The position numbers and the translations under genes are program-made. The notes under the pieces are model-generated. The model did not search any database. It had not been told where the DNA came from and saw only the letters and a program-made list of their open reading frames with translations. 37,113 nucleotides of DNA from Actinomycetota bacterium (GTDB lineage: Bacteria; Actinomycetota; Aquicultoria; Aquicultorales; Aquicultoraceae). Location of the stretch: the NCBI GenBank assembly GCA_014859275.1, contig JACUUO010000012.1:1-37113 (forward strand), read 5' to 3'. This document shows, in pieces, positions 11,191 to 13,016 of this stretch (the stretch's first letter is position 1; each line of letters begins with the position of its first letter).

Positions 11191-13016
11191 TATTCTGTGG
11201 GTCTGGTCCCGGCCCAGGACGAACGCTGGCGGCATGCACTTGCCCCGACAAGTCGAGCGAGCTGTCCCTGGTTACCTGGAGGGTCACTGTTCCCTTATAG
11301 AATTACATGGCGAACTCGGGTTCCGCGTGGATGCGAGAATCCCGAAAGGATTTTCGCTGAAGTCACGGACAGGGTTCATCGTTTATGAGACTGCGGGTCA
11401 GTCACTCCAGGTAAACTAAGGCGGCTAAGCGGCGAACGGCGGAGTAACGCGTAGGTAACCTGCCTCAAAGACCGGAATACCCTCTCCCGAGAGGCCGCGA
11501 GGTCACTTGGGAGGGGCTAATGCCGGATAAGCTCACGCTCCATTGATGGGGCGTGAGAAAAAGGTAGCCCTTAATCGAGGCTTCCGCTTTGAGATGGGCC
11601 TGCGTCCTATCAGGTAGTTGGTAGGGTAACGGCCTACCAAGGCGACGACGGGTAGCTGGTCTGAGAGGATGGTCAGCCCGACCGGAACTGAGACAAGGTC
11701 CGGGCCCGGAAGGGCTAGCGGGGTGGAATCTGTCGCAATGCGCGCAAGCGTGACGATGCAATGCCGTGTGGAGGAAGAAGGCGGGTGAAAACACCCGTTG
11801 TAAACTCCCGTCGGACGGGGAGTAAGCCCAGGGGGTGAAAAGCCCCGGCTGGGTGAAATTACCCGTCATCGAAAGCGCCGACGAACTACGTGCCAGCAGT
11901 CGCGGTGATACGTGGGGCGCGAGCGTTGTCCGGAATTACTGGGCGTAAAAGGTTACGTAGGCGGCCGGATGTATCGGCTGTGAAAGCCTCTCGGTAAACG
12001 GGAGGAGGTCGGCCGAGATTATCCGGCTAGAGCGCAGGGGAAGGAAGTGGAACTCCCGGAGGAGCGGTAGAATGCGGTGATACCGGGAAGAACCCCAAAG
12101 GCGAAGGCAGCTTCCTATACTGTTGCTGACGCTGAGGTACGAAAGCCAGGGGAGAGAAGCGGTGTGGCACCCGCGTATTCCTGGCCGTAAAAGTTGGGCA
12201 CTAGCCCTGAGCCCTCACGAAGGTTCGGGGCGCAGCTAACGCATTAAGTGCCCCGCCTGGGGAGTACGGCCGCAAGGCTGAAAACCAAGGGACTTGTGGA
12301 AATCTGCACAATCGGCGGCGAGTGTGGTTTAATGCGAGTTCGAGCGCAGAACCTCACCAAGGCTGCCTGCAGGAGTAAGCCAGTGGAAACGCTGGCCCTC
12401 CTCCAGGGGACGTTCCTTGCAAATTACAAATACTCGCGAGAATTTGTAATTTGCAATGAACGTCCCCAGACTGGACCCCTGTGGGTAGGCGTGTATGGTC
12501 ACCGTTAGCCCGTGCCGTGAGGTGTGCGGTTAGCTCCGCGTAACGGGCGCAACCCCTTACCCCATGTTGCCATCGAACAGCGCCGGGCACTCATGGGGAA
12601 CAGCCCGCGAACGAAGTGGGAGGAAGGTGGGGACGACGGCGGATCGGTATGCGCCGGATGCCTTGGGCTACACACACGCGACAGTGGCCGGTACAAAGGG
12701 GGCCGAACCCGCGAGGGAGAGGAAATCCCAAAAAGCCGGTCGTGGTTCGGATCGCAGTCTGCAACCCGACTGCGTGAAGCTGAAGCCGATAGTAATCGCG
12801 GATCAGCATGCCGCGGTGAATACGTTCTCAGGTTTCCTTCATATAGCTGGCCGCGTCCGCCAAAGGCGGATCGGCTGAAGCCGTCAACCCAACCCTGCCC
12901 CAGCGGGCGGAAACGTCTACTAGGGCGGGGAGGGAAGATGATTAGGTCGGTCCAACTAGGCGGTCGTTGGCAGGGCATACCGCCCGTACCGAGAGGTGTG
13001 GGCTTACTTAAGAACT
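11191..13016 (+). rRNA. Highly divergent 16S-type rRNA (functional centres altered, anti-SD absent)
   Basis: The 16S framework is recognisable from GGACGAACGCTGGCGGC at the 5' end, through TACTGGGCGTAAA and GGGGAGTACGGCCGCAAGG, to GCGGTGAATACGTTCTC. Position numbers below are E. coli numbering from memory. Helices are kept, often by paired changes. A19-U916 and U20-A915 of the central pseudoknot are both C-G. G506-C525 of the 530 pseudoknot is A-U. C783-G799 and A784-U798 are swapped to other pairs. The 790 loop, the 907-930 region, the decoding strand and the 3' end differ from sites that are nearly invariant in bacteria. The first variable region is long and a 62-base palindrome fills the V6 area, so the gene is about 1.8 kb. 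The 3' end is approximate because no CCTCC is present. Confidence 0.85.
12406..12467. repeat. 62-bp palindrome (REP-like) inserted in the 16S V6 region
   Basis: The arms begin GGGGACGTTCCTTGCAAATT and are complementary across the centre TCGCGA except at two positions. The same element, perfectly palindromic, lies in the 23S at 15927-15988. It would extend as a long hairpin on the host helix. The GGGGACGTTCC ends resemble palindromes associated with REP-type transposases in other genomes (from memory); no such transposase is in this window. Confidence 0.75.

Follow-up and report, generated by a model that had tools for sequence, protein, structure and literature searches.

The most divergent 16S rRNA genes so far catalogued within single genomes differ by 7.3-9.0% in Scytonema and by 11.6%, insertions included, in Thermoanaerobacter (PMC5658200). 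In Scytonema hyalinum (type 1), Thermoanaerobacter and Haloarcula, a second, distinct operon keeps its secondary structure, differs by 7-9% (11.6% with insertions), and is considered functional or possibly functional (PMC5658200). The operon described here is, like these, a second and distinct one that keeps its secondary structure. It is unlike them in that its 16S gene diverges by about 34%, that sites of decoding and tRNA contact have been lost, and that it is found in two families.

The window analysed is a stretch of 37,113 nucleotides from the genome of an Actinomycetota bacterium (G000; 2.83 Mb in 299 contigs, 98% complete). Every genome compared is a fragmented draft assembly. Positions 11191-16914 of the window hold a complete and strongly divergent 16S-23S-5S operon, called div from here on. 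Its 16S-like gene matches RF00177 over the full length of the model (cmscan; window 11191-13017, model positions 1-1533) with a score of 1011 bits, against 1450-1617 for canonical relatives. The genes of the operon and the signals around them are:

11109..11120, + strand: leader motif GATCTTTGAAAA, which I take to be a boxA-like antitermination motif; similar in G001 and G005
11161..11186, + strand: leader hairpin immediately 5' of the 16S gene
11191..13010, + strand: div 16S-like rRNA, full-length RF00177, lacking the anti-Shine-Dalgarno; 3' end not fixed
13044..13100, + strand: element of the internal transcribed spacer (ITS), TTCCGGCTCCGGGTTCCCC, with a covarying hairpin
13183..13195, + strand: spacer boxA TGCTCTTTAACAA, 5' of the 23S gene
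13199..13221, + strand: 23S processing stem, 5' strand (AATAGCGTGCA...)
13222..16768, + strand: div 23S-like rRNA, full-length RF02541 (cmscan), 2102 bits
16781..16791, + strand: 23S processing stem, 3' strand (TGCACGCTATT)
16799..16914, + strand: 5S rRNA, canonical in look, a cmscan match
16918..16954, + strand: intrinsic-terminator-like hairpin and T tract 3' of the 5S gene, read from the sequence and absent from the consensus-scan list

Several of these signals recur in the related operons introduced below. The boxA motif is conserved among them, and the 23S processing stem is kept while both of its strands vary (CGTCAAG/CTTGACG, TATTAAG/CTTAATA, TATCAAG/CTTGATA). The ITS element, about 50 nt long, is nearly invariant in all four div operons of the family, with covarying pairs in its hairpin, and is confined to those four among 36 genomes of the class that were searched. 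Terminator-like hairpins lie 3' of div operons. Together the boxA, the stem, the ITS element and the terminator-like hairpins support the view that div is transcribed and processed. G001 and G005 have hairpins at the equivalent leader position, of a sequence different from the window's. The 5S gene is present only in the window's operon and is missing from those of G001, G005 and G009. In the region 5' of the operon, promoter-like matches occur only at chance level. A non-coding stretch of about 190 nt upstream (window ~10470-10665; L090 ~10530-10725) is shared with the empty site of G006 described below. It matches no Rfam family (best E 0.65) and is possibly a structured RNA of the locus.

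The genes also carry inserts:

11266..11418, + strand: lineage-specific insert of about 150 nt at the tip of the helix 6 hairpin
12406..12467, + strand: dispersed palindromic repeat, inserted in the helix 33 region of the 16S gene
15927..15988, + strand: the palindromic repeat again, here as a second copy within the 23S gene

The repeat (GGGGACGTTC...GAACGTCCCC) is also dispersed elsewhere in the genome (C282, C7, C232) and reads as a mobile palindrome tolerated within rRNA. Tandem-like inserts with complementary ends (ctagagactagatactagagact and similar) occupy hairpins of the div 23S gene at window positions 13350-13500, 14050-14190 and 14820-14955.

Div-type 16S genes are found in three other genera of the same family (G001, G005 and G009, the last being CADDYS01) and in a second family of the same order (G011, which is JAMCWL01, Actinobacteria bacterium FK_Sedi_B_Bin.58). 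Of 396 genomes sampled from the phylum, only these four and G000 have the div 5' signature with one mismatch or fewer; elsewhere in the sample there were just 3-mismatch matches that read as canonical. The exact pattern was not met outside the order in the genome contig collection searched, nor did a pattern from the div 1400 region match anything among viral contigs. G360, from another family, was rejected as a further case: its 16S gene is canonical, 81% identical to that of G049. Within the family, div 16S copies are 79-87% identical (the comparisons with G005 being partial). They are about 70% identical to the div 16S of G011, and all div copies are only about 66% identical to the family's own canonical 16S.

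In G000, G001, G005 and G009 the operon occupies one orthologous locus. An LPG-synthase-like gene and a DUF5714 gene flank it, and ligA-like and gatCAB-like genes lie downstream. Misassembly or contamination might be suspected, given that all assemblies are drafts and that a contig of the second family (C53) has low coverage and an inverted piece of 23S. Four genera, assembled independently, nonetheless place the same operon between the same genes. This excludes the misassembly of which the sequence-only reading had warned, and artefact of either kind has next to no chance of being the explanation. In G006 the equivalent locus is intact and holds no rRNA, so div is not essential to the family. 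A protein of about 190 amino acids adjoins the locus (L033:15461-16030, L034:7556-8149, L070:7220-7807, L090:10955-11512), at the empty site of G006 as well. The two copies tested had no Pfam match, and no such reading frame was found in the window. In G011 a second piece of div 16S (L072:8366-8648) is 84% identical to the first over their overlap, so two div copies, or two strains, may be present in this genome. Both of its pieces have low coverage, and one of the contigs, C53, is rearranged.

Is div the only rRNA operon these organisms possess? An Rfam scan of the window's genome listed one 16S and one 23S gene, both of them div. The idea was rejected nevertheless, on the strength of BLAST and synteny. 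With the div 16S as query, the start of a canonical 16S gene appears at the end of contig C151 of the same genome, where the sequence-only reading had suggested that a canonical copy be sought. C151 is syntenic with the canonical operons of G007, G006, G003, G002 and G011, beside murA-like and PBP-like genes (names that rest on gene length and position). At the murA locus of G001 and G005 a run of N precedes a canonical 23S gene, and these runs may hide a canonical 16S. Three genomes, G000, G001 and G005, thus hold both types, and with canonical copies beside it div is a paralog, neither decaying nor the only copy. Among canonical genes, the 16S-like sequence of G011 (L036:8054-9508) loses its resemblance to rRNA after about E. 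coli position 1330, probably at a chimeric contig end. The canonical 23S of G007 contains a group I intron (L032:11578-11880), and 23S identity around the introns of that gene was left out of comparisons. Long inserts are also present in the canonical 23S genes of G014, G024 and G049, close to E. coli position 1913-1952.

In the 16S tree div forms one clade (100/100), G011 branching first, nested within the class (100/99). The 23S tree is less resolved. The stem that joins div to the rest is long, 0.5 changes per site, as might be expected if the operon had been acquired from an unsampled lineage with naturally odd rRNA, and known divergent operons have been attributed to transfer (PMC5658200). 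Against this stand the nesting of div within the class, a clade of div with the order's own canonical 16S genes that the AU test does not reject (p 0.17), and the distribution of the 5' pattern, exact nowhere outside the order and represented elsewhere in the phylum only by canonical-reading, 3-mismatch matches. I consider horizontal acquisition very unlikely. The div operon evolves several times faster than the normal one. Over one 23S segment, G001 and G005 share 96.1% identity in their canonical copies and 87.4% in div.

The structures of the div 16S and 23S rRNAs are under strong selection. Changes were scored against the canonical consensus, on Rfam structures placed in E. coli numbering. 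In the 16S of G000, 71 of 411 pairs have changed on both sides and still pair (mean of 500 shuffles 16, maximum 28), and 17 have changed on both sides and are broken; 90% of pairs form, compared with 70% in shuffles. In the 23S, 97 of 687 pairs have changed on both sides and still pair (shuffles 19, maximum 34), and 92% of pairs form, compared with 75%. The same holds for the other div copies. It holds also within the clade: among the family's div copies, double changes that keep the pair number 44 in 16S (at most 14 with partners slid) and 99 in 23S (at most 18). Selection on the fold therefore went on after the genera split.

The paired changes had first been read from the 16S-like gene of the window by itself, and the Rfam SSU alignment bears most of them out. 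Pair 10-24 is G-C, pair 506-525 is A-U, and 783/784 have been exchanged together with 798/799. In the central pseudoknot the C-G at 20-915 is a true departure, but C19-G916, cited along with it, is already the normal state in canonical relatives. The same is true of A513-U538; both pairs are usual in this phylum and drop out of the list. The changes extend well past that gene, to the 23S and to the flanking processing signals.

These results bear on the possibility that div is a transcribed pseudo-operon, slowly decaying, with helices left from earlier selection. Some 8-10% of its pairs are broken, compared with 2-3% in canonical genes, its genes contain lineage-specific inserts and dispersed palindromes, and one lineage, G006, has the locus empty. 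It is too much to ask of decay, however, that compensatory change within the clade should reach about three to six times the best slid control, that the genes should remain full length and about 78-87% identical across genera, that processing signals and the ITS element should be conserved, and that change should be concentrated at ligand sites. Covariation, including the excess among div copies, leads me to reject decay as very improbable. The sequence-only reading had likewise held that this was no simple decaying copy, and the compensatory changes in 16S, in 23S and within the clade sustain it.

If the fold is kept, what has been lost? Forty-six changes, at sites invariant in 18 canonical 16S genes, are common to the four full-length div 16S genes from the two families. 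Invariant sites that contact mRNA, tRNA or factors have changed in 65% of cases, compared with 24% for other invariant sites (p 1e-8), by a working list of contacts that includes helix 44, which is hard to align. Change is highest in the 3' minor domain (40-51%). The functional sites in the window's 16S are:

11892..11910, + strand: 530 loop, kept; across the four div copies of the family, 15 of its 17 invariant sites have not changed
12163..12170, + strand: 790 loop, altered to TGTGGCAC
12846..12978, + strand: helix 44, now longer and unbroken, lacking the 1408/1492/1493 decoding internal loop
12991..12994, + strand: helix 45 tetraloop, GAGA in place of the canonical GGAA, still of GNRA shape but of changed identity

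G530 and C518 are retained in all div copies, and A532 varies. Elsewhere in the 16S, G926, A1339 and C1402 are kept. The altered 790 loop, A532G and the replacement of GGAA by GAGA in the KsgA tetraloop are as first read. The loop of helix 31 is altered too. The bases C and G once assigned to A1492-A1493 depend on the alignment, the 3' strand of helix 44 aligning poorly; what stands is that in the folded structure a continuous helix takes the place of the A1408/A1492/A1493 internal loop. The anti-Shine-Dalgarno CCTCC is absent from each div copy that has a 3' end.

The pattern is repeated in 23S, where 57% of invariant ligand-contact sites have changed, compared with 28% of others (p 4e-12), judged again by a working list of contacts, one that includes the L1 stalk, which is also hard to align. 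With a published list of sites in the peptidyl transferase center (PTC) the figures are 50% and 30% (p 0.002). By that list, variability within div is no higher at the altered sites (31%) than at the rest (24%, p 0.27). Domain I has changed least (3-7%) and domain V most (19-23%); in G009 and G005 the figure for domain III is high as well. The sites in the window's 23S are:

16047..16051, + strand: P-loop, G2251 and G2253 changed to T
16246..16252, + strand: PTC 2448-2454, with A2451T (16249), C2452A and A2453G
16346..16358, + strand: A-loop hairpin (H92), with its stem retained and T in place of G2553
16449..16471, + strand: sarcin-ricin loop, GAGA changed to GCAA, stem kept

G2251 and G2252 of the P-loop and G2553 of the A-loop pair with the CCA end of tRNA. 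In all four div 23S genes G2251 and A2451 have become T, and in three of the four G2553 has changed. In the order G000, G009, G001, G005, the bases are TTTT at 2251, GTTT at 2252 and TCGT at 2553. The A-loop stem is retained across div copies, its loop being variable. The canonical sarcin-ricin loop AGUACGAGAGGACC gives way to a GCAA or GAAA tetraloop that keeps the GNRA shape and the stem. The H69 loop is scrambled, and G009 and G005 have lost the L1 stalk by deletion. Of the PTC bases, U2506 and C2063 stay unchanged. In E. coli no bases of the P- and A-loops tolerate mutation less than G2251, G2252 and G2553, and single PTC mutants, A2451U for example, keep some activity (PMC7049736).

Might div then be a specialised ribosome that still translates, with other rules for starting (there being no anti-Shine-Dalgarno), other accuracy, or other substrates, such as tRNAs with altered ends? 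The retained sites (the 530 loop with G530 and C518, G926, A1339, C1402, U2506 and C2063) mean that function may be altered rather than absent. The conserved operon signals, the 46 changes common to two families and the tolerance of single PTC mutations (PMC7049736) speak for the same idea. However, the decoding loop of helix 44 is gone, H69 is scrambled and two copies have lost the L1 stalk. With G2251 lost and 2553 differing between copies (T, C, G, T), no consistent new partner for tRNA ends is seen. Neither does any genome with a match have a second gene for L3, the only ribosomal protein checked; a paralogous set of ribosomal proteins was rejected on that count, L3 alone being considered. 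I judge a translating ribosome unlikely.

I propose instead that div is probably a vertically inherited 16S-23S paralog, selected for structure, that has lost decoding and peptidyl transfer and serves as a ribosome-like scaffold in a role other than translation. In some uncultured actinobacteria, an RNA with the fold of a ribosome lacks most of what serves to decode mRNA and to form peptide bonds, which suggests a conserved ribosome-like particle that is not engaged in ordinary protein synthesis. As to how it works, I lean toward an ancient operon, kept beside the normal one, whose products would form ribosome-like particles that do not carry out canonical translation and act through binding. 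On the simplest model, the div rRNA would be transcribed, processed and bound by the cell's ribosomal proteins. The particles would fail at decoding and at tRNA binding, hence no canonical translation. The likeliest of the mechanisms is that they might serve as a regulated sink, a decoy or a store for the ribosomal proteins and ribosome-binding factors to which they bind. Of all the steps this is the one I hold least firmly, and I offer it tentatively. Given the known order in which rRNA domains assemble, the binding model fits the anatomy of change, which is smallest in the early-assembling domains and greatest in the parts that bind ligands. The central claim of the sequence-only reading, a paralogous rRNA kept for its structure with its functional sites changed, survives, borne up by the canonical copies, the compensatory changes and the single locus in four genera.

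Conserved paralogs without catalytic activity are common among proteins, but I know of no such paralog of a ribosome, and the open-access literature yielded no account of a conserved, non-translating rRNA paralog that lacks canonical functional sites. If the proposal is true, these lineages have kept rRNA for its fold and its binding alone. They would offer a natural experiment in which the demands that assembly makes on rRNA can be told apart from those of translation, and would point to an undescribed use of ribosome-like particles. Div genes would also be missed or misclassified in 16S surveys, distorting estimates of diversity.

With canonical small and large subunit rRNAs (RF00177, RF02541) div shares the full-length fold, some 90-92% of pairs, the order of the operon and the processing signals. 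It differs from them in the loss of the anti-Shine-Dalgarno, the helix 44 decoding loop, the guanines of the P- and A-loops, A2451 and the identity of the sarcin-ricin loop, and in two copies the L1 stalk. Like bacterial rRNA pseudogenes, it has apparently lost canonical function and tolerates inserts; unlike them, it is not truncated, shows strong compensatory evolution and has been retained since ancient times at one locus. Mitochondrial rRNAs also evolve fast, retain the fold and lack an anti-Shine-Dalgarno. They, however, have been shortened and have kept the decoding site and the PTC, because they translate, whereas div has been lengthened and does the opposite.
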